64,000 nucleotides of DNA from Tetracentron sinense. Taxonomy: Eukaryota; Streptophyta; Magnoliopsida; Trochodendrales; Trochodendraceae. Shown in pieces: positions 13,037 to 43,792 of this stretch. The position numbers were made by a program, and so were the translations under genes. The notes under the pieces were generated by a model, which worked only from the letters and a program-made list of their open reading frames with translations, had not been told where the DNA came from and made no database searches. The stretch lies in contig CM026568.1 in the NCBI GenBank assembly GCA_015143295.1, positions 14,700,607-14,764,606 of the forward strand, given 5' to 3'. Position 1 is the stretch's first letter, and the number at the start of each line of letters is the position of its first letter.

Positions 13037-14649
13037 GGGGAAAATACATTTATACCCATGAGGTTTGACGAAAATATACATAAACCCCTCAGGTTTCAGA
13101 AAATACATTAAGTACCCTCACTTTTCAAAATATTGACACTAACACTCCTTCTATCAATTACCCTTAAAAATGACGATGTCATTAGCTAAAATGGTATGAA
13201 CTACCAAAAATATCCTATTTAAGGTTGTCATTTTCTATTTTTCTTATTTACCAAATTATCCCTTCTTTTTTTGAATGAAATCAAATCCTCTAGAGTGGCC
13301 ACATGTCCTTCTTGACACCCCTTTGAGGTGGCCATGTGTCCTTTTTGACACCCCTTGAGGTGGCCACGTGTCCTTTTTGACACCCCTTAAATGGGGTTAG
13401 ATTCACCCACCCCAATGGTTCACCCGCCCATCCTTGGTTTTTTTTTTTTCAAAATGTTAATTCTTTTTAAAATTTAATAATTGTTTTTAAGACTTTGTAA
13501 ATATTAAAATATTTCAAAAAATAATTAATATTTAGAAAAAAAAAACCCAAGGATGGGCGGGTGAACCCTAGGGGTGGCCACATGTCCTTTTTGACACCCC
13601 TTGAAGTAGCCACGTGTCCCTTTTGACACCCCTTAACTATGGTTAAGATTCACCCACCCCTAGAGTTCACTCACCCATCTTTGGTTTTTCTTTTTTATAT
13701 TAATTCTTTTTTTGAATATTAATTATTTTTTTAAAATTTAAAAACTGTTTTTAAGGCCTTTTTACTATTAAAATATTTTTAAACAAGACCAAGGATTGGC
13801 CGGTGACACCCTGAGGTAGTCACGTGTCCTTTTTGACACCTCTTAAATGGGGTTAGATTCACCCACCCCTAGGGTTCATCTGCCCATCCTTGGTTTTTTT
13901 CTTTTAAATATTAATTATTTTAATATTAAATTTTTTTTAAAAACAATTATTAAAATTTATAAAAAATAATATTTAAGAAAAAAAAAACCAAGGATGGACG
14001 AGTGAACCATAGGAACGGGTGAATTTAACCCCAATTAAGGGGTCTCAAAAAGGACACATGGCCACCTCAATGGTATCAAAAAGGACACATGGCTACCTCA
14101 AAGGGGTGTTAAGAAGGACACGTGGCCTCCTCAAGGGGTGTTAGAAAGGACATGTGACCACCACAAGGGGTGTCAAAAAGGACACGTGGTCACGTTAGAG
14201 GATTTTTTATTTTATTCAAAAGAGGACAGTTTCGTAAATAAGAAAAGTGGAAAATAACAACTTTAGAGAGGATATTTTTGGTAGTTTATATCATTTTATC
14301 AAATGACATCATCATTCCATCAATTGACTAACGGTCAACTGATAGAAGGGATATTAGTGTCAATATTTTGGCGACCTCAATAGGTGATATCAGATTTTTA
14401 AATTATAAATAAATAGTGTTTTAGAGTAGGAATAGTAATTTTTGAAAATTGAAGGGGCAATGTTGAAAGTTTACACATCTCACATGACATCATCATAGAT
14501 CAGTAATTCTGTGAGTTGACTAACGGTTAACTAATGAAAGAGGTGTAAGTACCATTATTTTAAAAAGTAAAGGTTCCTAATGTATTATTTGAAAACTGAG
14601 GGGTGTATGTGTATTTTCGTCAAACCTCGGGGTGTAAATGTATTTCCCC
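13037..14649. mobile_element. Foldback-type DNA element (1.6 kb) with long inverted arms
   Basis: Left arm 13037 to about 13330 is inverted in the right side at about 14140-14370 and again, in part, at about 14500-14649. Shared outer motif: GGGGAAAATACATTTA on the left against TAAATGTATTTCCCC on the right. Later shared blocks include ACTACCAAAAATATCCT and AAATCCTCTA. The right arm therefore looks partly duplicated. The middle is an inverted series of ~27-bp units (separate entry) and AT-rich hairpins. No coding sequence and no clear target duplication. Mutator-like non-autonomous elements with long arms are the nearest known type. Confidence 0.65.
13297..14190. repeat. Inverted series of G-box/ABRE-like units
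   Basis: A ~27-30-bp unit with the core GGCCACGTGTCCTTTTTGAC, then ACCCC, appears six times in forward orientation (from about 13297, 13327, 13357, 13572, 13606, 13813). It appears five times inverted (about 14036-14190). Several copies keep CACGTGTC, a G-box/ABRE-type core; others read ACATGTC or ATGTGTC. A separate 21-bp perfect inverted pair lies at 13417-13437 and 13547-13567 (CACCCGCCCATCCTTGG core). Confidence 0.8.
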
Positions 14650-15198
14650 CCCTCCCCACGAAAAAAACAAAAGGGGTGTAACCCGAAAAAAAAAATTGAC
14701 ATACTCTAATAATCTCTAAACACTCTCAATTGCCATCACTATCACTGACACCGCAATCAATTCTCTTACCAAATCCAAGCCACTCTATTACCTCTGATGT
14801 CTCTAGCATACGCCACCTGGAGAGGCATCACTAGTCATGAGAGAAGCTTCTTGGTGCAGGCGCAGAACTATGCTCCAGTTCCGACCAGAATCTTTGGATA
14901 AAAAAATTCCCAATTCGACAAGAATCTTTGGATAAACAAACGCCCATTCAGTTCCAAATGCCTGCAAATTGAAAGATGAAAAATCAAAATTTTCTCTCAA
15001 TTTATCTAAATTAAGAAATGTGAGCTCTATATACTTGTTAATATAGGCTTCTGCTCCTGAGGAGATGACTGCCGCGGGTAACACTAATGATAGCGAAGAT
15101 GATGATGAGGAGTTCGGCCATTGTAGGGGCATCCGCCAATCTTATTTTAAGGAACCTCATCTCTCTAATCTGAAATCATATGGCCCAACATAAAAGAG
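14650..15198. other. Intergenic, no gene recognised
   Basis: Low-complexity C and A runs follow the foldback element. 15060-15130 contains a short acidic open stretch (SEDDDEEFG) that may be a decayed exon, but no family is recognised. AGAATCTTTGGATAAA is repeated at about 14889 and 14922. Confidence 0.4.
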
Positions 15199-17465: not shown

Positions 17466-19034
17466 AATCACGCGATCCATGTGTCACCATTTCGTGAACA
17501 TAACAACAAAACCTAACTCGTTCTTCAACACTTAAACATTTGTTTACGAATTTTATCCCTTACACTAACTAAAGTGATCGCGATCATTTTGTCTTGTTTT
17601 CCATTAGAGTGTACAAAATTCTCAATGCAACTACCACCGAGTTTAACATCTTGATCTAATTCTTGAAAATACTGAGATAAGATTCCAAAACTTCAACTTC
17701 ATAGAAGAAGTAATATGGACCAAAGATTCACTCATGATAAAGCTCAAAATTAAGTTGCATATTCCCTTTTCTTTTGAAGCCATGCATGACGATGTGAGGA
17801 AGATAAAGTACACAATCAATTGCTCCTTGAAATTAGTAGTGCCTTGCCAAGAAATAAGTTAATAGTTCAGCTTCAATGTAGCGAAGAGGCTCGAGAATGG
17901 CACTGACCAACTGTTCCTTTTTACAAACATATAACAATATACACACATAAGATCGCCAATAAAATAGTTGAGTCAAGCTTGCCGAAGTGCTGAGGTTTTA
18001 AGGTCATCCATTTGTATCATTGGTCATATAGATACGTGTGAGACCTTAATCTCAGGGCTGCAAAAAATCGTATATATGTCCCCCATTAAGCCTAATCATA
18101 ATTCCAAAGAAAATCAATAAAACTATACAAAAGATAATGAAGTAAATTCGTATTATATTTAGGCATAAAAAAGAATAAAAGTAGATAATAATGTTGGTTA
18201 TTGCATGATCATATGTTCTATTGGAATAAGAGGGGCACTTAGGTTTAGGGTTATTTGAGACTTATAGGTAAGAAAGGGTTGGGACTTTTAAAAACGGGGA
18301 GAAGTACTTCTAGATTGGAGAAGGATTTGGACATGGAAGAAAAAAAAAAGGCAAATGGAACAAAAGTGAGAGGGGTTTGGCAGAACCAAAGGAGTGGATA
18401 GATATATAGAGTGAGATAATTTTGTAAGAGAGAGAGAGAAAGAGAGAGATGTTGGTACTCCGTGGCCATCCCAACATTCAGATATGCATCTCCATCCGTT
18501 GATACTACTGTGGATGAATGTTGTTGGCGGGCTGCTTCATCTTTGTCTTTGATTCTCCCTTTCTCTTTATGAGATTATAGAAAAATGATAACATGGGTTT
18601 CAAGGAAAATGTAGAAAAGTTTAAAGAAGTTTTCTCTCGTAAACATTTTCTCAAAAACAAACCATGAAGCTTAAAACGGGTTGAAGTAGTTGAGAGGACG
18701 GAGTTTGTTCGCCCTTTCATTTTCTCCAATGCTCTTAGTGCAGGAGAAGTTAAGGGGTGATTAGAGGGTAAGCATGCGAGTACCGGTGTAAATGGATACA
18801 TATATATTATCTGTATCCAATTCCGTTTACTCGGATAATTATCCGATGGAGCGAATTCAAATAGTATTTGTAATATTTGCTTATGATTGTATATGAATTC
18901 AGATATTCATATATCTGTTCGATAAATATTTGACTGATTATGTTATATTATATATTATTATATGTAACTAATATATAATATAAAACTAAAATAACCTTAT
19001 AGATAATCACGAATTACCTAATTCAAGTAGTAGA
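17466..19034. other. Intergenic, no gene recognised
   Basis: 17.6-17.9 kb has a weak coding look on the minus strand but no family is recognised. A GA-rich run lies at 18428-18450. 18785-19000 contains a GTGTAAATGGATAC/ATCCGATGG-type sequence, common in plant interspersed repeats, with inverted pieces. Confidence 0.4.
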
Positions 19035-20265
19035 ATATTGCTCTGGAGGAGCAGGTTAGCATCTTTTGAAAATAGGTGCATGTTAGCAAGATCATCGTGG
19101 TTTTTGCCCTAGGGTTTCATGGAAACCTCCATGGCCGCCGGCCCCATGGGAGGGGGATCTTCTTCTCGGCCTCCTGATAAGCCTTTGTATGCTAAGGTGG
19201 CTGGGTCCTTCTCTGTAAAATCATATGCAGATGCTACTGCAAAGTCTCTGATCCCAGAAACCATAGAATTTTCAAAATCCTTATTTGCGTACCAAGGTGA
19301 ACCAACTCTTTTTCTATCTCAAGATGAATCCGCAAAGCTTGCCTCCCCTCTAAATCTCTCTCTGATTGCAAAGTGTTCGTATGGAAGACCTACTTTTCCT
19401 GCTATTAGAGAGTTTTTTAAAAAAACTCTTCACTTGAGGCAAGATTACACCATTGGAGTGCTAGATCCTCGACATCTTCTTATCAGGTTTAGCTCCGAAG
19501 AAGATTATCTTACAGTCTAAATGGACCCCATCATTCTGCTCTGGGATCGAACCTTCGATAGTTCCGGTTCGGATTTCCCTGCCCAATCTCCCTATTCATT
19601 TATTTCAAGAACCAATACTAAGATCTATAGGATTTGCGGTGGGGAAAATCTTATGTATTGATGGACCTACAAAGTTATTAACTTGTCCCAACAAAGCCAG
19701 GATTTGTGTTGATCTGGATTTAACCAAAGCAAAACCAGAAAGAATTTGGTTGGGAATTGGAATCACTAGCAGATGGCAGAAGATATGCTATGAAAACCTT
19801 TTTTCCTATTGTTCCCATTGTTGTAAACAAGGTCGTGAGAACTCTGGATGCAGAATAGCAAACAAAAAATTTCACCAAGCTAATCCGAATGAAGAACATG
19901 GCAACAAACCAAAGGAAATCGAGAAGAGAGGAACCAAGAAATCATCTCATCCTGGAAACGTTAATGAGAACAATATTGCACATGAAATAATAGTCGAATC
20001 CCCTATTTCCAATGATGCAGATCGCCCTTTCAGATTAGAGGTGGTCGAAGAGCAAACTAGATAGAAGATCTCTCTCGATGTGATTGAAACAACAATAAAG
20101 GTTCTGCAGATCTGAAAAACGCAGCCAGTTCTAAAGTAAATCTCGTCAATCACGTTGAAGCTGCCCAGCCTTTGAAGCTCAGAAGCTTGGTAAATAATAA
20201 ACCTTCTCCGGATGTCTAGTTTGTATACAAACTACTCTCTTCAGAAGGTAATCCGAATCCGGTTC
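19035..20265 (+). mobile_element. L1-type LINE, upstream part (leader and ORF1)
   Basis: First segment of a plant L1 element that resumes at 28545 after an inserted copia element. The copia is bounded by GGTTC at 20261-20265 and 28545-28549. The LINE 5' end is approximate: a short leader precedes the ORF1 start at 19119. The order ORF1 (DUF4283, CCHC knuckle), then ORF2 (endonuclease, reverse transcriptase, zinc-binding domain) is the plant RIL/L1 plan. The LINE is the oldest layer of the four-level nest. Confidence 0.8.
19119..20210 (+). pseudogene. LINE ORF1 protein (DUF4283 plus zinc knuckle), broken
   Basis: The start is at METSMAAGPMGGG; an RNA-binding ORF1 product is expected. The DUF4283 core is visible (GEPTLFLSQDESAKLASPLN, then CSYGRPTFPAIREFFKKTLH). 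It is followed in another frame by ISLPNLPIHLFQEPILRSIG and RICVDLDLTKAKPERIWLGI, then a zinc knuckle YCSHCCKQGRENSGC. The frame is broken by a stop at about 19518 and a shift before 19640, with a further stop at 20062. In the knuckle, the usual histidine position appears to be arginine. The C-terminal part lies beyond the copia insertion, at 28563-28882. Confidence 0.8.
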
Positions 20266-21171
20266 TAAAACAAGTATATAGAAGTTGTTCTCTCTCTATC
20301 TCAACGTGAGAGGAGAGAATTCTATTTATATTATAATCTCTATTCATTTGTTACAATAGGAAAGGACATCTATATACTACTACTATAACCCGGTTGGTCT
20401 CCACGTGGCTCTTCAGAAGCCTTCGTTTGAGTTCTACTTCTTTCCCACATGTCATGCCACGTGTCCTTTTCCCTCTGTCCGATTGGTTTCCCCACCATAT
20501 TTAATACCCTAATTAATCTTCTCTGTAGACTGTAGGTCTTCCCAATACGTAAACTGCTACTCCCCTATCTTCCCAACCCGTGTTCCTATCTTAATGTGTT
20601 CATATCTTTACATATTCCTTCCATAAAGTTGTATAGACCCAACACATTAAATAAATTTATAACAGTTCCAACATTCTCTCTCATGCAAATAAAGTCGAAA
20701 CAACTCTCTTCTTCATCCAAGCAACCGGCAAAGAGGGTTTTCTTCATCCAAAGTATCACCCATTAAGCAACATCAATTTCCAGTAGGTAATCCGATTCTT
20801 TTGATCCATTACCAGTAATTGAACGCTCTTTATCCGATGCCTCCACCTTCTGTAATCAACGACCTGATTTTTTTTTTGTTTTTGTTTTTGTTTTTTTGGC
20901 TTGATTACTTAGCCCTGGTTTTGTGGCAAATAGGGTTTACTTAGCCCTGTTTCTTTAAGCTAGAACATGTGGTAGAATTTATCTTGAGATGTATGAACGT
21001 GTCTACATATCTTAGATTATCTCATGTTAAAATTCATGTGTCGGTACGTTTCTCCTTAATCTTCCTTGCTTTGATCCTTCCCATAAGCTGACAAAGTGAA
21101 AATTTACATTTATAAGCTTTTTTGGTTTGTATTTTTTTTGTGCTTAAATATTTCTTAATATCTGTTGCAAG

Positions 21172-21414
<243 letters not shown>

Positions 21415-21986
21415 TAGAGGAACTCAGAAGATCCAAATCTCAAGGATGCTTTGGTTTATATTTTAGAGGGTGTCCTTATCTGGTTGTACTTATCCTGGTA
21501 TAGGATTTTGGTTTTGTTTCACGGCCTATTTTCTATAAGATTCAGGTAGGATTTCAAGCGACGGGCCTATTCTGGGCAATTCAGGATGTTCTTTACTATT
21601 GCTTACATGGCTACAAGGTTATTTGGTTATAATGTTTATCATTGATTTCAACCGCAGGGCCTACCCTCCAAAATATTTAAACATCTTTCTCAATTAGTTA
21701 TGTAGACCACTTGCTATTCTTTTCTACTCCTATGTGAATTTAGAAAAATCAAAATTTTATAGCGAAGTGGATATTGATTTTGGTCTCTTTTGGTGGACAA
21801 CAGAAAAGGTAGGACACAAAGGATAAGAGACGGAGAAGAAAGAGGGCAGAGATTTCAAACTACACTCTCTCTTCTATACTTGCGTCTCTTCCTTTATTTC
21901 CTTTTTCTCTTTTATAAATCAATTTAAATTTTCTTTAAAAACTTCCATTAATATATATATTTTTTTTAAAAAAACTGTCTTGAATC

Positions 21987-21999
21987 CGTGCATAGCACG
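21987..21999 (+). mobile_element. Second Helitron-type 3' hairpin inside the Helitron
   Basis: Perfect stem CGTGC-ATA-GCACG followed by AGACTTTTATTTTC, with no CTAG. It resembles a decayed 3' terminus and may be the old end of a shorter ancestor or of a nested copy. Confidence 0.4.
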
Positions 22000-22449
22000 A
22001 GACTTTTATTTTCTTTTCATATTTGATTTCTCTGCATCTTCCATACATATTTCATTTCTATACACAATCAGCCCATGTTTATTCCTCCATTGTATTCATA
22101 GGAATACTTGAAAGTCAGGATGGGGAGATAGGAGGAATGTGCTCTTCTTAACTATGCCATACACATGGCAAGCATATAGGGTGGTTGGTGGTTCTTCACC
22201 CCACTATGAAGATCTCGTGGATGCTTCATTTCATTTGTTTGTTATTTGGTTAGGTTTTGGATTTCTTTGGAGTAGACCCCGGCCAAAGGTCTTTTTGATT
22301 CCCAAGTACGAAGATTTTCCATTCCCTGATCAGATTTGGATATATACTCACACATGAAATTTGTACACGTCTAACGCTGTGTGACCCAGGTTGTCAGTCG
22401 ACCTGAACTTATGGTCTGTGTGAAACTTTCTTTTCTCTGTTTTATGCAG

Positions 22450-22483
22450 GTTACACAAAATGCTAGAATTTATGGTAGAAATG
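22450..22483 (+). pseudogene. Short exon-like piece in the Helitron, origin unknown
   Basis: 34 bp (VTQNARIYGRN) between a good acceptor (TTTTATGCAG) and donor (GTATGTTG). No family is recognised and it may not be coding. Confidence 0.3.
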
Positions 22484-23076
22484 GTATGTTGTTTATTTTT
22501 ATTTATTTACTTTTTGTTTTCTGTTGTTACAAAATCAACCTAGATTTCACTTGAATTGAGTATGGCCTAGACAAGACAAATGCCTTAGTAGTCCACAGGA
22601 ATGTTTAAGTAACTTGATTGTGTGCACAAGTTGTTTGCTTCATGCTTCAACTATTTGGTGGTAAATTATGTTTCCCTCAAATATAGTGGCATTACAATTA
22701 GAAGGCTCCATAGGATTACATTCTACATTGCAATCATGAATTTGTTTGTTCCCACCTTACCCCCAAAAGAAGAAATACATTAAAAAAAAAACGAAATTCA
22801 CAGCTCATAGTTACATTGTTAGGTGGAAACATTTTTTTCCATGAACTGGGATCAATACACATGTTAGGCAATGTTTGCTATTTTCCAATGCCATTTATTA
22901 TAGTTGGCATCTCAGTTCTTTTATTGTCGTCAAGGTCCTCTAGACATGTTATCCTATTTCTAAGGTCTTAGTATCGTGTTACTTAACATACGAATTTGTA
23001 CTTAATGCTTACTTACAATCTCTTTAATATCATACACTGTACATTACTCTCTATTTTTAGAACATTAGAAACTTCC

Positions 23077-23202
23077 TTTTTTTTTTTTTTTGGAACTCGG
23101 GGTGTCCCCAACCCTTTGGGTCAGGACTAATCCCCGAGGGTGTGGCGTGAGCCCGCAACCCGCCACACTAGTCCAGGTAAACCCGTGTGGGGCTGGCCCA
23201 AG
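23077..23202 (-). mobile_element. SINE (126 bp) inside the Helitron
   Basis: Read on the minus strand it ends in a poly-A tail (T run at 23077-23091). It is flanked by AGAAACTTCC (23067-23076) and AGAATCTTCC (23203-23212), a 10-bp duplication with one mismatch. It shares GTGGCGGGTTGCGGGCTC, CACCCTCGGGGATTAG and GACCCAAAGGGTT with the SINE at 40375-40520, so both belong to one family, probably Au-SINE-like (from memory). Confidence 0.8.
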
Positions 23203-23596
23203 AGAATCTTCCTTGCTTTTGTATAAACAAATAACATTTAATATATCATTATATTCAGGTGTAGTCATGATTTTGAATAACCTACATTTCTAGGAACTGT
23301 GTCATTCAAGTTGTTGAATTTTTGGGTTGTTTTCAGTCCTTCTATTATTAAATCCTTTACCCTATGTTTGGTTGCTGAGAAAATAGTGAAAACATGGAAA
23401 AGAAAAGAAAAGAAAATTAGACAAGACACAGCCAAGAATTGTATTAGAAATATGAAATTTTATTTTATTTTCTATATTTTCACCTATTTTCTCGGCAACC
23501 AAACATAGCATTAGGGACTGTAAAATCCAGCCTTTATAGGTCTAAATTTCGTGGGCTGATTTGTGGCCCTTTAGATCTCTTGCCCCGCCATCTTAG

Positions 23597-23695
23597 GTAA
23601 TTGAAGTTCTCAACAAAGAAGTACTTGAAGCAGAAGCACAATTTGAGAGACTGGCTGCGTATCAGTACACAAAACAAAGACCGCAATATCTATGA
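23597..23695 (+). pseudogene. Captured terminal exon of an unidentified gene
   Basis: After the acceptor ATCTTAG it reads [20 protein letters not shown], then [12 protein letters not shown] and a stop. It is an open, charged, helix-like C-terminal sequence. It is not part of glutamate dehydrogenase, so the Helitron appears to have sampled more than one gene. The parent gene could not be named. Confidence 0.45.
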
Positions 23696-23961
23696 GTGCA
23701 ATACTTCAAACGTTTCTTCATATAACAATCATATGCCAATTTTCATTGGAAATAGATTTGTTTTCTGAATTATGTAAATCCTATATTATAATTTCTTCAC
23801 ATCCTGTGCAATCGCACGAGGTTTTTGCTAGTATACATATATGCAAATCATGATTTGGGGAGAGATTGTAGCACATGGTTTGGCAATGCAAGACAGTTTA
23901 GGAAACTAACAGTAATGAAATATTGGCACAAGGTTTGAAATCTTCTTTGAGTTGACTATTA

Positions 23962-26900
23962 CACCCCCTCAAGCTGATGGACCGCTCGTGGACGGAAAGC
24001 TTGTCTTGCAAAAATTTGAACCAGTGAGCTGATAGGCCTTTGGTAAAAACATCAGCAACTTGATCTTTTGTTGTGACATATGGAACATCAAGCTCTTTGT
24101 GAATGACTTTTTCACAAATGTAATGATAATCGTAATGATAATCGATTTCTCCGTGCTTTGTACAGGCATGAAATACCGGATTAGAAGCGAGGGATATTGC
24201 ACTAACATTGTCACACCAAATTAAAGGAACAGTAGGCAAGAAGACTTTTAGATCACAAAGTAGCATACTCAACCATGAAATCTCAGCGGTGGTGTTAGCT
24301 AAACAATGGTACTCGGCCTCAATTGAAGAACGGGCGACGGTAGATTGTTTCTTTGCGCTCCATGATATAGGATTAGAGCCAAAATAAATACAATAACCAC
24401 TAGTTGATCGGCGATCAGTTGAATGGCCAGCCCAGTCAGCATCACATTAGGCAACTAGGCGAAGAGGACCACGTTGAAATTGGATGCCAAATTATACTGT
24501 GCCTTTGAGAAAGCATAGGATACGTTTCACAGCAGTCGTGTGAGCAGTAGTAGGAGCGTGCATATATTGGCAAACTTGGTTGACATCAAAAGAGATGTTT
24601 GGGCGGGTTATGGTGAGGTATTGTAACCCCCCAACAATGCGGCGATACTCTGTGGGATCATCGAGGGGATCCCCTATGGTGAGTACCAATTTGACATTTG
24701 AGGTAGTGGGTGATGTGACGGGTTTTGATCCTATTATACCAGTCCGAGTGAGGAGGTCCAACATATATTTGGTTTGAGAGAGAAACATCCCATTTTGATC
24801 ACGATGTACTTCTATACCCAAAAAGTAGTTGAGTGATCCAAGATTTTTCATGGCAAAGTGAAGACCCAATTGTGTGATTAAGTGTAGCACATACTCATGG
24901 TTGCTTTCCGTGATAATGATATCATCCACATAGATTAAGAGGCATGTGATGGTGCCACCTTCATGATGAATAAACAAGGATGTGTCAGCCGTGGAGGCTA
25001 TGAAATCCAATTCCAATAGATGAGATGTGAACTTGTCAAACCAAGCACGAGGGGCTTCACGAAGCCCATAGATGGATTTGTGCATTCGGCAAACATGGTT
25101 GGGAAAGGTAGGATCAACATATCCTTGTGGTTGGACCATGTAGACATCTTCATGTAGGTCTCCATGGAGAAAGGCACTTTCAACATCTAACTGCTGGATT
25201 GCTCAATTGTAGTGAAGAGCAAGGGTAAGAACCACACGAATGGTTGTTTGACAACTGGGCTAAATGTCTCAAAGAAATCGATTCCGGGCTGTTGGTGGAA
25301 CCCCTTTGCAACTAGGCGTGCCTTATATCGTTGAATAGTGCCGTCTGAATTTTGCTTTATTCGGTACACCCACTTGCATCCCACAACATTCAAGTTGGGT
25401 GTATGGGGTACTAACGACCATGTACCACATCGCTGAAGAGTGTTGAACTCATGATCCATTGCTTGCCGCCATTCAACTTGTTTGGATGCCTCCGTAAAGC
25501 ATGTAGGTTCACGCTCTACTACTGTAGTAAGGAGACATGTAGGAATTGGATGATTTGAACCTAAAAGGGCTTTAGTTTTGAAGATATCAGATTCGAAGTG
25601 TGTATTCATGGGGTGAGTATTGGTGGTGGTTGGTTGGATATGAGTTGTGGGGAGTGAAGTGGTAGGTTCATTTGGTGGCAACTCATGAAGTGGGTGCATG
25701 ATGATAGGTGCAATGGATGGAGCAAGGGAAATTGTTGGATGGTTGGTATTGGAAATGGGTGGGTTGTTTTGAACTATTAAAGTGGGTTGATTTGAAGAAC
25801 TTATGGGTTGGGAGGTAAGGTTTGGAAGATTTGAGATGGTTTGGTCTAATGAGGTTACATGGTGAGTGGTTTGTTGGGACAGTGGTTGTTGATGGTCAAG
25901 TTGGGTGTGGTTTGATGTAGGTGTAAGAGATGATGCAGGACACCATATGGGGCTGACTATGTGAGTTGTAGGTATAGTATTATTGTGTTGAAACCAGGCT
26001 GACAATGGGCCAAACACAATCGGGTCCTCCATGCGCGTCGAGGCAGTGAATGTAGATTGTTGAGAATTTACAGATCGTTGACAAAATGGAAATAAGTGTT
26101 CATCAAAGACAATGTGGCGAGATTGATAGACTCGTCCTGTTGACAGATCGAGACATCAATAGCCCTTATGATTAAGACTATAGCCCAGAAACACACATTT
26201 GATTGACCGAAATTCGAGCTTATTACGGGTATAGGGATGGAGCCAAGGATAGCATGCACACCCCCAATACTCGTAAAATGGAATAGTTTGGAGTTTTGTG
26301 AAAGAAAACCTCCCAAGGTGAGATATCAATGAGAACTTTTGTTGGCATTCGATTAATTAGAAAAATGGTTGTGTTAAAGGCTTCAAGCCAATAGGTGGAA
26401 GGCATGTGAGCATGGGCTAAAAGGGTGAGTCCAGTTTCAACAATATGACGGTGTTTTCGCTCGGCCATACCATTTTGTTCGGGTGTATGGGGGCAAGAGA
26501 GTTGATGAGTGATACCATGAGTAGATAGCAAAGAGCTAAATCGAGAACTCATGAACTCTCCACCCCCATCCGAGCGAAAATTTTTGATTTTATGGTCCAA
26601 AAGATTTTCAACAGTAGTTTTGAAGGAATGAAACACATCATAAACATTCGATCGTTGCCGTAAAGGAAACAACCAACAATAATGTGAATAGTCATCAATA
26701 AAAATAATATAATATTTGAAACCACTTATTGATGAAGTAGGAGCTGGTCCCCATACGTCACTATGAACAAGTTCAAGAGGTCTAATAGTAACAGAGCTAG
26801 AAGAAGAAAACAACAATTTCTTACTCTTCCCAAGTTGACATGAATGAAAAATAGAAGAGAGCGTGGAAGGGCCAGAGTGTGGGAGAGCAGACTTGGAGAT

Positions 26901-28306
26901 GATGGTTTGTAGTGTAGGAGTTGAAGGATGTCCAAGCCGTGAGTGCCATAGTAGAGAAGTGACACGTGTGCCAAGAAGTGCCGTAGTTCCAGATTTATTG
27001 ATGTGGTTAAGCGAAATGTGAAATGGATACAATCCACTTTCAATCTGCCCGCGGAAAAGAGTCCTTCCCAATGCTTTGTCCTTCACAATAAAACCATTAG
27101 CATCAAAACAAAAAACACAGTCATTGTCTTTGAAAAATTTATGAACTGAGAGAAGGTTAGTGGAGGCACTAGGGCAATGTAAAATATTGCGTAGATGAAA
27201 GTTGGAGTCTGAAGAATGTAAAGTAGAGGAACCAATGTGGGTGATTGACAAACCTTGGCCATTTCCTACTTGAACTTTATCACCTCCTTGATAATCTGAG
27301 TGAACTGATAAATTTCCCAAGTCTAAAGTGATGTGATGAGTGGCTCCGGTGTCGGTATACCAAGTTTGATTGGTCGGGGGAGATGGAGTAGCAACCATAG
27401 CAGCAAGCTTTTGTGGCGGGGTTCTTCCTTGGTAAGCATAGTTCATTCTGTGGTAACAGTCAATGGCAAGATGTCTAACCCTGTTACAAATTTGACAGGT
27501 GGGTCGATGAGTTTGAGAGCATTGGCCACCAACACGGCCATGTCCACGTCCGTGGGCTCGACCGCGATAATGTCCTCTATGCTGTCCATTCCTTTGAGGC
27601 AACATGTGAGGAGCACAAGCAGCAACAAATGCTGAACTTTGAGATTCTTCAATGCTTAACTCTTCACAAATAAGAAGAGAATGAAGTTCGTCCAATGTGA
27701 TTGGATCGGAGCGCGAGTGAGTGCAAATAGAAGTGTTGAATGGGCAATACGCACTAGGAAGACCATTTAAAGTATGAAGTATGAGATCATCTTCATCAAC
27801 CGGGGCAGCACAAGCAGCGAGTTTGTCTGCCAAAACTTTAATTTGTTGAAAGTAGTCGTGCATAGAGGATGCCCCTTTCTTGACAGATTGAATTTGTTGC
27901 TTAAGTTGCAATATATGAGAGCGAAAGAGGGATGCATACCGTTTTGCAAGAGTATCCCAAACGATTTTGGAGGTGGGTAGTCCAACAACATAAGGAAGGA
28001 TGGCTTCAGATACAGTAGAATTGATCTATGTAAGAAGATTTTGATCTTTAATAACCCACTCCGTGTACTTGCGATTGACGGTAGTGGAGATGTTTCCATC
28101 AGAGTTTTGTAGAAACTGAAGAGGACAGATTGAAGACCCATCTACGAATGGTAGCAGGTTGTGACCTCGTAGGACTGCTAAAAACAGAGGTCTCCAAAGA
28201 TGGTAGTTATTGTGATCTAGTTTAATTGGTACCAAATGTGCAATGCTAGAGAGAACAAATGTGTTTGAAGATGCATTGCCTAGGATGTTGGAGGAAGTTG
28301 TAGCCA
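23962..28306 (-). mobile_element. Interior of the Ale-like copia element
   Basis: Approximate parts on the minus strand: gag at 27.4-28.3 kb, with the CCHC knuckle near 27.5 kb; protease (YTDTGATHHI) near 27.3 kb; the pre-integrase LLWHSRLGHPS motif near 26.9 kb; integrase core at 26.3-26.8 kb (DDYSHY, PEQNGMAERKHR); reverse transcriptase at 24.5-25.4 kb (LLIYVDDIII); RNase H at 24.0-24.4 kb with the end motif VADVFTKGL. A proline/threonine-rich linker sits between integrase and reverse transcriptase. Broken; treated as a fossil. Confidence 0.9.
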
Positions 28307-28544
28307 TAAAACAAGTATATAGAAGTTGTTCTCTTTCTATCCCAACGTGAGAGGAGAGAATCTATTGGTGTCTATTTATAATCTCTATCCATTTGTTACA
28401 ATAGAAAAGGAAATATACATATATGCAAATCATGATTTGGGGAGAGATTGTAGCACACGGTTTGGCAATGCAAGACAGTTTAGGAAACTGACAGTAATGA
28501 AATATTGCCACAAGGTTTGAAGTCTTCTTTGAGTTGACTATTAG
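28307..28544 (-). repeat. 5' LTR (238 bp) with TA...TA ends
   Basis: On the minus strand it runs TAATAGTCAACTC to ACTTGTTTTA, so the ends are TA...TA rather than TG...CA. The flank GGTTC at 28545-28549 repeats at 20261-20265. A TATA-like TTATAAATAGAC lies on the minus strand at about 28370-28380. The gag ATG begins on the last LTR base, leaving no separate leader. Confidence 0.85.
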
Positions 28545-28562
28545 GTTCCTTTTTAGTCCAAG

Positions 28563-28882
28563 CTAAGTATTTTAGAGAAAAGAATCCATAGTACCATTTG
28601 TCGTCCTAGAATTTCTAGGGACATATGTGGCTTTCTTCAGCCTCAGCTGAACTCCATAATGAGGTAGAGACTATACCATTTGATACGGAAAACAACTATG
28701 TTAAAGATGCCAAAGAGTTCCTTGCTTCTCTTTACAAGATCAAATCCTGCAATGGGGCAAACTTAGAAGGGGAATTGACCCAAAAAATAAAGAAAAGTAT
28801 TCCTCCTTTGGACAGAATTACCTGGTCTAGAGCACTAGCTCCCATCTCTTTGGAACAAATCTTTCCAGTTTCCAATGATTAG
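28563..28882 (+). pseudogene. LINE ORF1, C-terminal part
   Basis: An open frame (WLSSASAELHNEVETIPFDT to EQIFPVSND) ends at TAG 28880-28882. The ORF2 start ATG at 28875 overlaps this stop by 8 bp in another frame (AATGATTAG), a compact ORF1/ORF2 junction that suggests termination-coupled restart of translation. The N-terminal part is at 19119-20210. Confidence 0.6.
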
Positions 28883-31800
28883 TATTCTATCTTGGAATAT
28901 TAGAGGTGTTGGCAATTTTGCTTCTAAAGCCAGACTTAAGAAAATAATGGAAATTCACCAAATTTCTATCATTGCCATTATGGAGCCTATGTAGACTTCC
29001 AAAAACTTACTTCCTCTCAGTAAGATGCTTAATAAGACTGGTTATCTAGCCCACCTGAAGATTTGTCTTCTCTGGAAAGATGGTTTGAAGATTTCTCTCT
29101 TTGCTTCTCTAGACCAAGCTTTAATAGTGGATGTGATTTTTCCTGGTATAGAAAAGTTCAGATGTGGTTTTATTTATGCTAAATGCTTGAGAGAAGATAG
29201 ATTGCTTCTATGGAATGATATCTTTTTACTGTTGGCAAACTATAATGGTCCTCTCCTCTTCGCTGGTGATTTTAATGCCATATCTAATTTTGGAGAAAAA
29301 ATGGGTGGAAGGGATCCCAATTTTTGGTCTATGGACGATTTCAATACTTTCACTAATGATATGGGGCTTATAGATGCTGGCTTCACAGGTAACAAATATA
29401 CTTGGTGTAACAATCAAAGGGGCCAAAACAGAATATATGCCAAGTTGGATCGGATACTTTAATGCGGATTGGAGCAATAAATTTCCTTCTTCCCTAGTCA
29501 CTCACTTATCTAGGCTCAATTCGGATCACGCTCCTCTTATCTATAAGTTTGATAATGGTGTTGCTCGAAGCCCTTCTTCTTTCAAATTTCAAAAGATGTG
29601 GGTTTCTCACTCAGATTTCAAAAGGTTAGTAGAAGAATCCTGGTCTTTTCCTATCTATGCTAACCCTATTACTGCTTTCTTTCTAAAACTTAAGAGACTT
29701 AAAACCTCTCTAAAGAATTGGAACAGAGAAATATTTGGAAACCTCTTCAGCACAATAAAGGATTCGGAGGCCAAAATTTGTGAAACATAAATTAATTTGC
29801 AAGAAACTTGGGATAGTAGATTGGAAGAGTCTCTATCTTCTCTCAAGGATAATCTTCAACAGGTTATGATTCATGAAGAAATTTTTTGGAAACAAAAATC
29901 TAGAATTAAATGGCTCAAAGAAGGAGACAACAATGCAAAATTTTTCCACTCAATTGCTAATCAAAGAAGAAAGAAGAATGTTATACATAAAGTGAAGAAT
30001 GATCTGGGTGAATGGATAGAAAATCATCATGACATTGCTAATGAAGCTGTTTCTTTCTTCCAGAATCTTTTAACTACGTCTCAGAATGATATCGATAATG
30101 GCATTCTTGATTATATCCCAAGATTGGTTTCAGATGAGGATAATTGCTATCTTACTTCTTCTCCCTCCTTAGAGGAGGTCAAACAGGTGGTCTTTAGTCT
30201 AGCAGAAGATAATGCTCTAGGGCCAGATGGCTTCAATGGGAATTTTTATCGAGCTTGTTGGGACATCATCCAGAATGATTTGTTTATAGGAGTCCGCCAT
30301 TTTTTCTAAACCTTGTTATGCCTAGGTCAGTTAATGCTACAACTATAGCTTTGATTGCTAAGCGTGAAGATCCATTGACCTTTGCAGATTATCGGCCTAT
30401 TAGCTTATGTAATTTTTTCTATAAAATATTTTCCAGGATATTGGTAGTTGGGCTTGAAATTATTCTTCCCAATATTGTTTATGAAGAACAATTAGGATTT
30501 ATAAAAGGCAGGAACATTACGGATAATATTTCTATTGCTCAAGAAATGGTGAATGAAATAGATAGAAAAACTTTTGGTGGAAACCTTCTCATAAAGCTAG
30601 ATATGGCGAAGGCATATTATCGCATGGATGGAATTTTATTCTTGGTGTTTTGGAAAAGTTTGGTTTTTGTGATAACTTTATTCGTCTTATCCATGGTTGT
30701 ATACAGAATCAAAGCTTCTCCATGATCATAAATGGTTCTCTTTATGGATTCTTCACTATCTCTAGAGGATTAAGACAGGGTGACCCTCTCTCTCCTACTC
30801 TCTTTATATTGGCTGAGGAGGTCCTAAGTAGAGGTCTTAAAGATATTTCTTCTCACCAACTCACTCCTTATAACATTGGGATAAATGGCTTTGCGGTGTC
30901 CCACCTCCTTTTTGTGGATGACTCTCTTATTTTTTGCAATGGTAGCTCTAGAAGCATTAAAAAAAAATCATCTTTCTTTCTAAGTATGGAGAATCTTCTA
31001 GGTAGTTGACTAACAAAGATAAAAGTTCTCTGTATTGCTTGGGAAAGATGCCTTCTGCAAGCAAACGGGGCATTTCTAGAATTCCAGGATTCCAATTTAT
31101 ACATTTTCCCTTTACTTACTTGGGAGTTCTGTTGATAAAGGGAAGGCAAAAAATTATTCACTTTCTCCCTATTGTTGAGAAAATCCAAAGCCGTGTCTCT
31201 GGGTGGTATGGTAAGTTCCTCTTAGCTGGTGGTCGGTTAATGTTGATTGAGTATGTCCTATCTTGTATTCCTGTTCATATCATATCGGCTATCAACGTTC
31301 ATTCTGGTATTGTCTCCAAGATCAACAAGATTATGGCCATATTTTTTTGGAACAATTGGGACTCTCAGAGTTGTCATCATTAGGTGAGTTGGAATATTTG
31401 TGCTTTGCCGACCCTTGAAGGAGGTTTGGGTATTAGATAGATGGAAGATTTTGCTCTGGCTTTTCGAACTAAATAGGCCTGGAAAATTTACTCTTTAGAT
31501 TGCCTTTGGGTTAGATTCTTCAAGGCCAAATTCAGTGCTAACCATGTCTGGAATGCTTTTCCTATTCGGGGATCTTCGAAACTGTGGGCTAATATTTGTG
31601 GAGTATTCCAAGATATGCTTTCCAACACTTCAGTTCTTACTGGAAATGTTTAAAGTCAATTTTCGGTTTGATTGGTGGTACAAGGAGGAAGCATTCATCA
31701 ATTTGACATTGGATAACCCTTTTGACAACCCTATTATTGCTAATATCCTTAATTCAGAAGGTGAATGGGACCTTTCTCAGGTGAGTAATCTGGTTTTTCC

Positions 31801-32146
31801 TGCTACAATTGAAGATATCAAATCTGGAAATTTCTCTACATCAGATGAAGAAGAAAAATTATAGGGAACAAATCTTCTTCTGGTGAATTTATCATTCAGT
31901 CTGCGTGGAATTGTCTGAGGAACTCTAGGACTCCCCTTGATTGGGCTAAATCAGTTTGGAAGCCGATTGTGCCTACCAAAATTCGTGTTTTCAGCTGGAA
32001 GATTATGTATCGAGCAATCTCTACTAATTCGACTATCCAAGCCACATTAGCATCTCTTTGGTTAGCAAATGCGTTTGCTGCAAGACTTTTTGTATAGAAA
32101 GCTCTGATCACATATTCATTACTAGTGAGATTGCTTCGAACTGTAC
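28875..32146 (+). pseudogene. LINE ORF2 (endonuclease, reverse transcriptase), broken
   Basis: Starts MISILSWNIRGVGNFASKAR. The endonuclease shows SWNIRG, IIAIMEP, LLFAGDFNAISN and NSDHAPL, so the expected N, E, D/N and H residues are present. The reverse transcriptase shows DYRPISLCNFFYKIFSRIL, LLIKLDMAKAYYRMDG (the usual AYDR is AYYR), GLRQGDPLSP and LLFVDDSLIF (FVDD rather than the common FADD). The zinc-binding C-terminal domain begins IVPTKIRVFSWKIMYRAIS and ends KCVCCKTFCIESSDHIFI. The frame is broken by a stop after IMEP near 28996 and by shifts or stops near 29.46, 29.79, 30.31, 30.66, 31.0, 31.38 and 31.86 kb. Long inactive. Confidence 0.9.
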
Positions 32147-32681
32147 GGATTTAACAAGTGTACAAGAGATCCTAGCCATCAAACACCCAGGCCACAGGGA
32201 AGAACCCAGGAAAGAGCATAGATGATATTCGCTTAAAAGTGTTTATTTTCACTATTATCTTTTGAGGCGTTGTCAAACTCTAATACGTAAACTTTCAATT
32301 TTACAAACTTTTTTACGTAAGGGTTCCCTCCATTGCATAACATACACATTTCTGGTAAAAATGGTATATTCGCATGAATTTAACATGTTTCTAAAAGTCT
32401 ATATTCAAAGATGTTTTTATGAATTCTCATTACACGCTTTAATGTTTCAGGACCCAAGATTATAAGAAATTCAGGAACCAGGATGCCAAAAGCAACGATT
32501 GAAGCTAAAGGCAATAAGCTGCTTCATCTAGAGACAGGCCAAACATGAGCTGAGCTAGTGACTGAAGAAGGCCAAAGAACCAAATAATACATTTCGTAGA
32601 GAAAGGGACTCAATTAATAAATATTCCCTACAAGACAAAGAAAGTAGCAAGCTTAATTGGCAAAGGCCGGGAGAGATCATG
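32147..32681. other. Intergenic, no gene recognised
   Basis: Sequence between the broken LINE end and the Harbinger element. An acceptor-like AATGTTTCAG at about 32450 precedes a GC-richer stretch that could be a decayed exon, but no protein was recognised. Confidence 0.35.
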
Positions 32682-32917
32682 TTATGGGCCGTTTGTCATC
32701 ATTCTCGTGGAATAATTCCACGTTCCGGAACTACCCGAGGAATGAGAAACGGGTTTGGGTAGGGGATCAAGTTCAACCTAGGTGAGAAATGGGTTCCAGT
32801 GGCACGACTTTTGCGGAACAGAAAAAAAAGCTCCTTAGAACGGCACAACTCTTGAACCTTGTTCCCGATAAAAAAAAAAGCAAACAAGAAGTTTGTGTGC
32901 TGGTGAAGGGAGTAGCA

Positions 32918-33717
32918 AGGATCGATTCTCAATATGTAAAATGCATTTTAAAATGTTCCTAGATAGACATGAACTTCATATGATATGTGGAATGAATTAC
33001 AACAGGTTAGCATTACTTAGAATATTAACGAAACAAATTTTTTCTACTCATTGGACTGCTCTATCTGGAGTGGTCTTAATATGCTTGCTTGTGTGCTCAC
33101 CGTAATGTACCACAATGATCATGGTAAGGGTGTAAGATTCGATGCTGGTCCTTCAGTCCAGTTAGTAGAGCTGAACTAATCGAACTTTCCAAAGTTTGAA
33201 ATACAATATTTAACTTTAGAGAAATGGGGAACAACATAGATGATGCTATTGGTTTTATATGGATGTATTAGAAGGATCGATTCTCAATATGTAAAATGCA
33301 TTTTAAAATGCTCCTAGATAGACATGAACTTTATATGGTATGTGGAATGAATTACAACAGGTTAGCATTACTTAGAATATTAATGAAGCAATTTTTTTTT
33401 CTACTCATTGGACTGCTAAATTTGGAGTGGTCTTAATATGCTTGCTTGTGTGCTCACCGTAATGTATTGCAATGATCATGGTAAGGGTGTAAAATTCGAG
33501 GCTGGTCCTTTTATCCATTTAGCAGAGCTGAACTAACCGAACTTTTCAAAGTTTGAAATACAGTATTTAACTCCAGAGAAATGGGGAACAACATAGATGA
33601 TTCTATTGGTTTTATATGGATGTATTAGAAGGATCAATTCTCAATATGTAAAATGCATTTTAAAATATTCCTAGATAGACATGAACTTCATATGGTATGG
33701 GGAATGAATTACAACAG
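32918..33717. repeat. 356-bp tandem repeat, 2.25 copies, inside the Harbinger element
   Basis: GGATCGATTCTCAATATG-type starts occur near 32919, 33274 and 33631. The first two units are near-complete (355 and 357 bp) and highly similar, the third is only ~88 bp. Units contain TTAGCATTACTTAGAATATT and TGGGGAACAACATAGATGAT. No coding. Confidence 0.9.
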
Positions 33718-33894
33718 AAATACATTTTGTCTTCTACTTTTTGTTTCTAGTTTCTTTCTCTTCTTCTCTAGTTTTTCCTTGCTCTAATTGTTGTAATTGT
33801 AATGGTTAAACATGATGTTATGAAATAGATGAACATATATGGTTTGTTTTCAGAATTTTTTGAAGATACAGATTTGAGATTTTTTTAAATAAGT

Positions 33895-34823
33895 AATGCC
33901 TGACGAGGTTGCAACGTGGAGTGCTAGGGATGAGAAGTTGTTTATAGAACTAATGTTTGACGAGGTTTGCAAGGGCAACCGACCAACTACAACATTCTCA
34001 AAAAAGCATGGAATGATATAAATGGTAAGTTCTTTAAGGAAACGGGTCATAAGTATTCTCATCAACAATTCAAAAACAAGTTCAACAAGTTAAGCCTATA
34101 CTATTGAGAGTTCGCTTTGCGATATCCCCGCAGGGTTTGGTTAGAACCCCGTCTCTAAAACTGTCACGACTCTCGATGACATATGGGAGTCGTATTTACG
34201 AGTATGTGCAATTACTATTTTTTTTTATCAACAAGATAAAAAAAAATGTGCTTCATTAGATGTACACTTAATAATACCCATTGTCGATTGTTTTTAAAAC
34301 AGCAACAACTTGGGGGAAAAATATTCCGTCATAAGGGTGTCCAATGTGGGATTAGCTTGTGACAATATATGGTGACACTATCGCAACGGGTGATAATACG
34401 AGTTCTTCAGCACAAGGTGCAGGTGATACAGACGATAATGAGAATGTTGACGGGATTCCAGAAACTCAAGTAGAGCAATTGGAAGAAGATTTTGATGTTG
34501 ATATGGGGGGAGTTGAACCAACCCAGTTAGGGTACTTCTAGGACTAATACTCCTCGTAGAAAGAAGGTGTTGTTTTAATGAAGGCGTGTAAGGCCTACAC
34601 TACGAGACAACATCGAAGGACAAATAGTTCTAGGTCCGAAGCAAGTGAGGACTCTTTCTCTATTACTCGTTGTTGTGAGGTGTTAGCAACATTAGATGAA
34701 GATCTAAGCGACGAGGCCTACTTGAAGGCAATGAAGATTATCACGTACAATCGTAATTGGAGAGAACTTTTCATGAATATGCCCACAAGCCGGAAACTCC
34801 TCTTACTAAAGAGTTTAGAATGA
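33895..34823 (+). pseudogene. Myb/SANT-like DNA-binding protein remnant
   Basis: The start is MPDEVATWSARDEKLFIELM, then FDEVCKGNRPTTTFSKK. After a one-base shift near 33998 it reads AWNDINGKFFKETGHKYSHQ and QFKNKFNKLSLYY, followed by a stop: the W...N..F...TG..Y...Q.KNK pattern of the plant Myb/SANT-like (Myb_DNA-bind_3) domain. Downstream at 34360-34823 are acidic and serine-rich stretches and a conserved-looking end (CCEVLATLDEDLSDEAYLKA, NWRELFMNMPTSRKLLLLKS), also typical of this family. In Harbinger elements such a protein brings the transposase to DNA. Several breaks; not functional. Confidence 0.7.
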
Positions 34824-40374: not shown

Positions 40375-40520
40375 TTCGACTTCTCACTCCCCATTTGGGG
40401 CCAGCCCCGCATGGGATTTTCTCAGACTTACCTGGCGTGGCGGGTTGCGGGCTCTTGTCGCACCCTCGGGGATTAGGCTTGACCCAAAGGGTTAGGGACA
40501 CCTAGAGTTACCAAAAAAAA
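40375..40520 (+). mobile_element. SINE (146 bp) with perfect 13-bp target duplication
   Basis: Flanked by AACATGATCACTG at 40362-40374 and 40521-40533, with an A tail at its right end. Same family as the SINE at 23077-23202. An A-box-like TACCTGGCGTGG is visible; a clear B box is not. The perfect duplication suggests a young insertion. Confidence 0.85.
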
Positions 40521-40533
40521 AACATGATCACTG

Positions 40534-41118
40534 GTCCCTAATTTTCTTATCTTTCTCCTCCATCACAGATGTTCCCATGGCTTGAAGTAGGGGCATTCAA
40601 ATGTGGGGTACCAAAACAGTAGGGAGAGGACATCATATTTTGTTTTCCTGTACTTATTGAAAAGTAAATGAAGAATTTGGGCTTGTGATGAGTTTTGAGC
40701 AAGCACAATGCTTGTGACATTAACCTAATTTGCTAAAACTCCAGCAAACGTTGATCAAAATTAGAAAATTAAGTTGAAAAATTAGCCCTTTTCATGTATA
40801 AAAATTGTGTGAACCACGTGGATCAAACTGAACTGCAAGCCAGGTACTATAATGAATGTTGGGGGGCTTAGTGGATGTTCGATCGTATATTACACATAAA
40901 AGAAAAAGGAATAAAATTTTATAAAATAAAGTAAACAAAAATATACATGCAAATATAGGCAAAATAGTAACTCAATATAGTTAGAAACAGGGGCAGAGCC
41001 ACATGGGGCTAGGGGCTTGAACTTTTGAAAAGAAATAAAATTTCATTGATGTTATAATTGGGGCATAGCCTGGTGATAGGCCGAAGCTAAGAGGGGCTGT
41101 GCCCCCCGAACTTTTAAA
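40534..41118. other. Intergenic, no gene recognised
   Basis: 41.0-41.1 kb contains CAGGGGCAGAGCCACATGGG and GGGGCTGTGCCCCCCGAAC, sequences typical of a GC-ended plant MITE family, but edges could not be set. Confidence 0.4.
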
Positions 41119-41632
41119 TGGGCTTTAGTCCAAACAAAAAAATAAAATATAGGGCTTGGGCTTAAGGCCCACAAGACAAGTAACCAACCAACCAATCAGC
41201 CAGCCAGCCCGGACCGGACTCGGCACGGCTCAATTCGGGGTGGGGCGGGCGGCAGCGGCACGCGCGTGGTTGGTTCCACCCTTGGCTAGGTTCTCACCCG
41301 TTCACAAAATTTGGGTGCCTCAAGGGCCCACCCTTTACTCCAAGACAATGGTATATAAACCCACTTTGGTTTCAATAATTTTCCGATGTGGGATTATTTT
41401 TCTATACTATTCTTCAACTTATAATGCATGTTCAAGTGGCAAACTTTGAGATCAATTTCTCATTCACCACTTAACTGTTTTGGACAAATAAATATACCAC
41501 GTTATTCTCCTCATGGAGGAGAATACGGATCCACTTGGACCCACCTCATAACTCATGTGTTTCCCACATTTATTTTGAATCAAAGTTTACAAAAAAATCA
41601 AATTTTCCAATAACCAGATTTTTTTCCCAACA
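41119..41632 (-). repeat. 3' LTR piece of the outer copia element
   Basis: The minus strand begins TGTTGGGAAAAAAATCTGG at 41632, directly after the polypurine tract CATGTGGGGGAT. It contains TCCCACATCGG and a TATA-like GGTTTATATACC (41350-41361). It matches the end of the window from 63721. Confidence 0.75.
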
Positions 41633-41832
41633 ATCCCCCACATGAATGAAAATTTCTTGGACAGAATACAGAATATATGCAGACACTAAAAGAAAGAGTA
41701 CAAATGAAAAGTTACTACATCGGAAAAGGTAGTTTTTGGCCTTGAACCTTCCGTAGTGAAGTATTATCGGATTTACTAGCTATCCAATGAACATGATGTC
41801 TTGAACTGTTCAGCCGCAATGTAAACCAAGAC

Positions 41833-42526
41833 AAGTCGCAATCAGTAGAATCATGGGAAAGCATTCTCGCCTTTATCCCCTGCATGACATCCCTGCATAG
41901 CATCACACATTGTATGACCAAACTCCTCAGCATCATCTTTGATCAACTTCAGCGCCTTTTGGCCACATCAAATCTTTCAACATCTATGGGTACCTTTACA
42001 GTGTACACCACCCTTTCTCTGTACCTTTACAGTGTACATTGCTCGACATCCCACGTATACCTTTACATTGTATACCACCTGCATGTACTTCCTTTTGACA
42101 CCTCCGTGTGTCCTCGACATCCTGTGTATACATTTACAGTGTATACCACCTGCATGTCCTTCCTTTCGACACCCCCGTGTGTCCTCGACATCCCCGTGTG
42201 TACCTTTACAGTGTACACCACCCACATGTTACTCCTTCAACACCCTGTGTGTTCTCAACACCCTGTGTGTCTTTTCGATCAAACTCGATCGAATCCTTCT
42301 GGCCGACGCCTCCGGGCTATGCCATCCCTGTATCCATCATGCCCCAGTGAGTAGTCCGAACTACCCACTCTTCCCATCAGTGGCCTTGCCACTACGTTGC
42401 ACTCACCATTTGCACTGCATGCGTACATGTCATCATTTTATCTGAGCTTGGTGTAAAAAATAGGATGATTCCAGTCTTTGCCGTTCGAATCTCGAACCTT
42501 GGCATTCTCCCGCAAAAAGGGGTAGC
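41833..42526 (+). mobile_element. 3' tail of a second Ogre copy, before the left LTR
   Basis: Closely matches 56208-56930, including the TTTACAGTGTACACCACC minisatellite and the polypurine tract (GCAAAAAGGGGTAGC) that should only precede a 3' LTR. The left LTR is therefore shared between this tail and the main copy. It has one minisatellite unit fewer than the right-hand version. Confidence 0.8.
41990..42290 (+). repeat. CTTTACAGTGTACACCACC minisatellite (left copy)
   Basis: Same repeat as 56365-56690 in the tail preceding the left Ogre LTR. The copy number differs, showing the array changes faster than its flanks. Confidence 0.85.
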
Positions 42527-43535
42527 TGTAAGCACCCAATTTTTACCCCCCATCTAACTGTCGTTAAAGTCTTTTAACTATGGTTATCCCTAGAACCAAA
42601 ACCCAACTCTTAGGACTCGCCTTAGTCAAAACCCAGGCCCAAGCCTTAGCCGTAGGTGACCTTTAGCCTCGAGCCCACAAGGCCCCAAACATCAAAGTCC
42701 AGCCTCCTGAACCAAGTGGGTACAGGGCCTAGCCCATTAAAAAACAAAATCCCAAAATGTCGGTAGAAGGTCTACCAACATTAATTTTTACCCTGGTTTC
42801 ACATTGTCGGTAGACCTTCTATCGGCAACTGTAAGTCCCGAGTTGCAGGCTTGCGTACACCCCTGCACACTCTACCTCCACCTCGAACTCTCCCTTCTCA
42901 GCCCTCACACGACCTCCCCTTGGTCCAACCACCTCCTCTCCCTTCTTCCTAATCCCCTTTAGGTCCCTGTTGCTTCCCCTATAAAACCACACTCCCCTCC
43001 ACTGTTAAACGGTCTGCGTTTTTTTAGAGAAGAACCATTGCTGCAAAAACGTGATCCTCACCCCTCTTAAACCCTTGGTTTGGTTCTAGGCTTCCCCTAG
43101 ATTTGTTTCGAGCTCCCCCAAGAGCTACAGACCTTCACCGGAGTGCCACCATCACTGCTACAGCCACCACCACCATTTGGCATAAACAGAGCACTGGGTA
43201 GGGACACCCCTACCTATTTTCCATTTGTTCTCTCTATCTTGTGAGCCCCTGGTCAATTCCAGGGGAGTTATTTGCTTTGAAACTTTGTACTTAGTTGGTA
43301 ACTGAGCCCAGCAGGGTGTTCACCCACCTTGTTCATAGGTGGAGTGAACCCCCACGGGTATATATCATTCCGGGAGGCGTGGTAGATCTTCACAAACCCT
43401 CTGGGTCCCTCAGATCATGAGGGAACCCCTGGACATCTCTATGCACAGCCCCATAGGGCGCAAACCTATTTTTGGAGGAATCCAGGAATGGCGGCAATTC
43501 TAGTCCCTCCATTCCTGGTGGAGCCTTTTTTCCTT

Positions 43536-43609
43536 TTGTCGGTAGTTATTCTACCGACAATACCTTTTTGGCCTGTTTTCGTATTGGCGGTAGAATAACT
43601 ACCGCCAAT
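43536..43609 (+). repeat. Pair of palindromes in the left Ogre LTR
   Basis: 43536-43560: arms TTGTCGGTAG and CTACCGACAA, loop TTATT. 43583-43609: arms ATTGGCGGTAG and CTACCGCCAAT, loop AATAA. The two are similar to each other in inverse order, so they could also pair across. Counterparts in the right LTR lie at about 57918-57990. Confidence 0.9.
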
Positions 43610-43792
43610 ATGCTCCTTCTGTCACAGTGAGTTTGCACCTCTGTGGGACCCAATCCAGGCATCCCCTGGGGCTCACACCTGGCCTGAACTTTCTCCGGGA
43701 GTCCCCTCTACACTCCCATGCCTTTACTTCACCTCAGGTTACAACTTAACCCTGGTTAATAGAGGCAAAAACACAAGTTAAAAACACTGTTC

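Follow-up and report, generated by a model that had tools for sequence, protein, structure and literature searches.

In maize, 50% of Helitron copies are reported to lie inside another transposable element (PMC8547701), and 1491 nested pairs of long terminal repeat (LTR) elements are reported from 12 plant genomes, where nesting among LTR elements is described as common (PMC6911290). According to the same source, nested LTR elements do not commonly target LTRs (PMC6911290). Canonical Helitrons have a 5' TC, a 3' CTRR, and a hairpin of 16-20 bp that lies 10-15 bp short of the 3' terminus (PMC13286980), and they insert between A and T (PMC8969392). In this study, we analyzed a 64,000-nt stretch of Tetracentron sinense DNA (contig CM026568.1, positions 14,700,607 to 14,764,606), hereafter the window, in which a short interspersed nuclear element (SINE) lies in a Helitron, the Helitron in a copia LTR retrotransposon, and the copia in a long interspersed nuclear element (LINE). 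All coordinates are positions within the window; the nest was studied at 19035-32146. The locus is very probably a nest of plant transposons that arose as LINE, copia, Helitron, and SINE inserted independently and in that order, a judgement that applies to the whole multi-step account. It shares with the maize and 12-plant nests, as those sources describe them, the presence of younger elements within older ones, and it differs from them in holding four different orders in one stack. The element within an LTR here is a Helitron, in contrast to the nested LTR elements for which LTRs are said to be an uncommon target. The nest is not unusual for plants, in which nesting is routine. The literature search found no paper on Helitron insertion in such a nested LTR/SINE setting. 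The initial annotation had already described this nest, and both its existence and the element identities were upheld. The description as a clean test case was overstated, given that annotation of maize already resolves nested insertions genome-wide (PMC8547701). The locus is a tidy textbook example and a useful check case for nested-transposon annotation, and it leaves the view of how these elements work unchanged.

The copia element spans 20266-28543 on the minus strand and measures 4815 bp without the Helitron. Its 5' LTR (28307-28543, minus strand, 237 bp) is uninterrupted and ends TA...TA. Its 3' LTR (minus strand, 233 bp) is divided by the Helitron into 20266-20368, delimited by comparison of the two LTRs, and 23832-23961, which is 97% identical to 28414-28543. 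The LTRs are direct repeats around the internal region (23962-28306, minus strand), in which Pfam matches identified gag, integrase, and reverse transcriptase (RT): Retrotran_gag_2 (E 8.3e-13), Retrotran_gag_3 (1.8e-6), gag_pre-integrs, rve (1.9e-14), Pol_BBD, and RVT_2 (3.9e-41 and 2.9e-14). Gag, an integrase placed before RT, LTRs, and a target-site duplication identify the element as Ty1/copia. The duplication GGTTC was found, as claimed earlier, in perfect 5-bp copies exactly at both LTR edges (20261-20265 and 28544-28548). Because GGTTC directly adjoins the LTR edge, the right junction is 28543/28544 and not 28544/28545, a figure that was one base off; the other three junctions of the initial annotation (20265/20266, 20368/20369, and 23831/23832) are retained. 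The reading frame contains two frame changes and in-frame stops, so this copia copy is dead. Plant Ty1/copia elements of ~4.8 kb, among which we presume AtRE1 and the Ale lineage to be counterparts in size and placement, share with it the gag-integrase-RT order, the 5-bp duplication, and the LTR length of 233-237 bp. The features of its own concern the LTR ends and the start of gag, and are treated below.

The Helitron occupies 20369-23831 on the plus strand (3463 bp) and lies between A and T of one copia LTR, as had been proposed. The sister LTR is uninterrupted at the corresponding site, 28413/28414, and preserves the empty site: the right LTR reads GGAAA/TATACATATATG, and the left LTR reads GGACA/.../TATACATATATG. 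The segment opens with TCTATATACTACTACTATAACC; it begins TCTATATACTACTACTATAA and finishes TTTTTGCTAG, which gives the 5' TC and a 3' CTAG that conforms to CTRR. Its 3' part contains a 19-nt hairpin (CCTGTGC AATC GCACGAGG) followed by TTTTTG and then CTAG; the hairpin stops 10 nt before the 3' end and has a predicted energy of -8.0 kcal/mol with RNA parameters. The TC and CTAG ends, the A and T flanks, and the hairpin coincide with the boundary given by the LTR comparison. Since T stands at 20369 as well as at 23832, the frame of the element is ambiguous by 1 bp, and A/TC...CTAG/T is the conventional choice. Thus TC, CTRR, the subterminal hairpin, and the A/T insertion, as the cited sources describe them for canonical Helitrons, are all present. 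Inside 20369-23831, no stop-to-stop frame of at least 100 aa was found for a Rep/helicase, a protein that defines autonomous Helitron copies only, and the element was therefore filed as non-autonomous. The lack of such a frame sets it apart from canonical Helitrons with captured genes, as does the captured gene itself, a glutamate dehydrogenase. A second Helitron-type hairpin, CCGTGCATAGCACGAG, lies inside the Helitron at 21986-22001 with no CTRR soon after it, and could represent an older 3' end that has since been bypassed.

The glutamate dehydrogenase exon fragment lies at 21172-21399 on the plus strand, with AG before it and GT after it. Its best PDB match was 8owm (phmmer, E 1.9e-32), and it matched ELFV_dehydrog_N in Pfam (E 2.9e-20). 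The piece is decayed, with a stop in its reading frame and two inserted residues. It is of plant type and, together with the kinds of elements present, points to a plant host. The splice signals on both sides suggest that the exon was captured at the DNA level. Such a captured exon is ordinary, because ~60% of maize Helitrons are reported to contain gene fragments (PMC4778049); the literature search found no paper on Helitron capture of glutamate dehydrogenase fragments. Another exon-like piece of 32 residues, with AG before it and a stop after it, lies at ~23590-23700 and gave no significant match (best E 1.4 in PDB; no Pfam family at E 1). The Helitron also contains a hairpin resembling a miniature inverted-repeat transposable element (MITE) at 23363-23507, whose inverted repeats match at 19 of 20 positions with TA on both sides. 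The TA is weak evidence, because the ends were picked from a grid.

The SINE (23079-23202, minus strand) is 124 bp long with its A-tail. It is flanked by the target-site duplication AGAAACTTCCTT (23067-23078) and AGAATCTTCCTT (23203-23214). The initial annotation had placed a SINE with a 10-bp duplication in the Helitron; a duplication at the element's ends was confirmed, and its length was revised to 12 bp with one mismatch, of which the 10 bp are a part. A match of 11 of 12 positions has a chance of ~3e-6 at a fixed offset under independence, a value that is optimistic because the SINE edges were themselves taken from the sequence. Window self-comparison detected a second copy at 40375-40522 (81% identity over 125 aligned columns), which has its own perfect 11-bp duplication, CATGATCACTG, and supports the existence of a family. 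The element is thus short, A-tailed, flanked by duplications of variable length, and repeated, with both copies in the window tailed and duplicated. The second copy is longer on the 5' side, so the nested SINE may be 5'-truncated. Against the RNA polymerase III box consensus, the best A-like match (10/11) falls towards the 3' end within the SINE and the best B-like match (8/11) touches the SINE, so neither is where it would be expected and the boxes are unconvincing. Scans of the window for tRNA (bacterial code) and for Rfam families gave no match.

The LINE forms the outermost layer and lies on the plus strand in two parts. The left part (19035-20260) has a putative 5' boundary adopted from the initial annotation and holds open reading frame 1 (ORF1), with DUF4283 (E 4.1e-11) within 19465-20064. 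The right part (28549-32140) comprises the probable end of ORF1 and a decayed ORF2, in which Exo_endo_phos (E 2.2e-4; 21.5 bits, under the 24.5 cut-off), RVT_1 (4.2e-10 and 2.5e-10), and zf-RVT (7e-9) were matched, followed by a marginal zf-RVT match (0.02, below the cut-off) in another frame. This is the domain set of an L1-type plant LINE, namely an ORF1 with DUF4283, an endonuclease (here below gathering score), RVT_1, and zf-RVT. Since DUF4283 precedes the copia and the endonuclease of ORF2 follows it, the copia is placed between the ORF1 domain and ORF2. Its earlier placement within ORF1 agrees with these two domains; the 87-codon frame 28619-28879 between the copia and ORF2 matches no ORF1 family. 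The copia likely lies inside ORF1 itself, to judge from this open frame just before ORF2. Stops occur in every frame of the joined short flanks, so the LINE is decayed here. Coding similarity stops at ~32140, at position 82 of the 85 in the zf-RVT profile, after a frame change. Plant L1 ORF2 normally continues past zf-RVT, and the LINE is accordingly regarded as a decayed, 3'-truncated remnant. Just past the lost 3' end, the window contains an overlapping tandem duplication (32917-33717, 446 bp, 93% identity).

The order of insertion is read from these structures. In a first step, an L1-type LINE was interrupted, probably in ORF1, by the copia, which left the 5-bp duplication; the integrase mechanism behind such an insertion is well established. 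That the copia is later than the LINE is certain in practice. In a second step, the non-autonomous Helitron with its glutamate dehydrogenase exon entered an A/T site in the 3' LTR of that copia without a duplication. Both LTRs of a retrotransposon derive from a single template when the element inserts. Because reverse transcription makes both LTRs alike and the Helitron is present in only one of them, the Helitron must be later than this copia insertion. In a third step, a SINE inserted into the Helitron, probably by target-primed reverse transcription, and left its A-tail and the 12-bp duplication, either at this locus or at an earlier home of the Helitron. The SINE is later than the origin of this Helitron. 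The relative order is thus sure for three of the four elements. The strict chronology proposed earlier stands for LINE, then copia, then Helitron; it does not stand for the last step, since the Helitron may have carried the SINE in. Both the LINE and the copia have broken coding regions, the captured exon is broken as well, and we infer no function for the locus.

Several observations weigh against this account. No terminal duplication of the LINE was found: the longest word common to 18700-19160 and 32080-33000 is 9 bp, and this candidate was rejected because, when the right flank was shuffled 200 times, 174 shuffles gave at least 9 bp (null mean 9.45). There is no poly-A at 32146 and no A-run of at least 8 in 32101-32821; the A-runs of that length within 32101-33000 start at 32822 and 32870. 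With neither duplication nor A-tail, only the presence of the LINE is demonstrated. The exact boundaries that the initial annotation gave to all layers consequently hold for the copia, Helitron, and SINE junctions and not for the LINE ends. Beyond 32140, no LINE domain was detected in any of nine plus-strand frames within 32091-33176 (Pfam, E 0.1), which were chosen among the 18 open frames of at least 28 codons in 32090-34000. In frame 32091-32222, the zf-RVT match of an overlapping 59-residue peptide (E 0.02) was not repeated. Window self-comparison, run with low-complexity filtering and accepting E values up to 1e-4, gave no further copy of the LINE, the copia, or the Helitron. A search for relatives of the copia RT returned 2 stretches in viral and 18 in prokaryote contigs that fit the pattern, none of which was confirmed.

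Three other explanations were weighed. An assembly artefact would draw on the fact that the four layers are known from a single assembled sequence without reads; yet every junction of the copia, the Helitron, and the SINE bears the signature of its own element, which is not expected from misassembly, and such an artefact is most improbable. Just as hard to credit is the idea that the LTR originally contained the 3463-bp segment and that the other copy lost it by deletion. A segment present in one LTR of two formally permits either direction, but a precise deletion with TC and CTAG ends between A and T, next to a subterminal hairpin, would be a coincidence, and the segment holds a host gene exon. 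The third explanation is a serious though less favored contender. It holds that the SINE and the MITE-like hairpin were inserted into the Helitron elsewhere and came here as passengers, so that three arrivals built the locus and four are not needed. Helitrons transport whatever sequence their ends enclose, and a gene fragment is already present in this one; nothing within the window favors either order. Single-copy families are reported to make up 66% of Helitron families in maize (PMC8547701), a figure with little bearing on the present plant. The MITE-like hairpin is a sibling of the SINE within the Helitron, and its relative order is equally open to this explanation. Had the SINE and Helitron arrived together, the presence/absence ladder would have three steps, where four were predicted.

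The divergence of the copia LTRs gives a rough age estimate. With 20321-20332 left out, 9 differences (7 transitions and 2 transversions) separate the LTRs over 221 sites, a Kimura two-parameter (K2P) distance of 0.042 with a standard error of ~0.013. The whole alignment has 18 mismatches in 234 ungapped columns (K2P 0.081); this distance was not used, because the alignment extends by one base past each LTR and includes a rearranged stretch (20321-20332 versus 28362-28377). At assumed substitution rates of 1.3e-8 and 7e-9 per site and year, a K2P of 0.042 would correspond to 1.6 and 3.0 million years, respectively; in a slow-evolving plant, the element would be much older. The LTR age is an upper bound for the Helitron insertion and is silent on the age of the LINE.

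The copia differs from other plant Ty1/copia elements in LTRs that end TA...TA, in the lack of a TGGTATCAGAGC primer site near the LTR, and in a gag ATG that straddles the LTR end. TG...CA ends are usual and not universal, and TA...TA ends have reportedly come up in LTR-annotation work. Exceptions cited in one source are Tos17 (TG-GA), TARE1 (TA-CA), and AcCOPIA1 (TG-TA) (PMC5659011), and another gives TG...CA for 8 of 10 grapevine copia families, hence two without it (PMC2576258). In the sense of the element, the 5' LTR ends ...CTTGTTTTA and is followed by TGGCTACAACTTCC, with the LTR boundary within 28300-28316. The gag ATG consists of the last LTR base and TG, and a leader is absent. In plants, the 5' LTR is usually followed by a primer binding site of the initiator-Met type; the best match to TGGTATCAGAGC in the 381 bases of 27950-28330 (minus strand) had 5 mismatches in 12. 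The GGTTC next to the other LTR sets the LTR edge independently; if the leader had been lost by a chance deletion, that deletion would have to end exactly at the LTR. The copia could conceivably belong to a leaderless lineage whose LTRs end TA...TA and in which the gag ATG overlaps a possible primer site of a non-initiator-Met type, although we consider this unlikely. If it is true and relatives are alike, coding and priming sequences overlap. This is the single feature of the locus that a specialist might pursue.

Elsewhere in the window, self-comparison revealed direct repeats of ~3 kb (41832-44813 and 56207-59181, 90.6% identity), between which gypsy-type RT and RNase H frames (51495-53018) point to a large LTR retrotransposon. 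A second copia on the minus strand (58974-62430; RVT_2, 4.4e-73; rve, 5.4e-12) adjoins the gypsy-type element. The repeats at 41114-41438 and 63716-64000 (81% identity) could be the LTRs of this second copia, and the two elements may form a second nest in the window. A cluster of mutually inverted and direct repeats, with ~70-84% identity over at least 100 bp, lies at 13037-14650.

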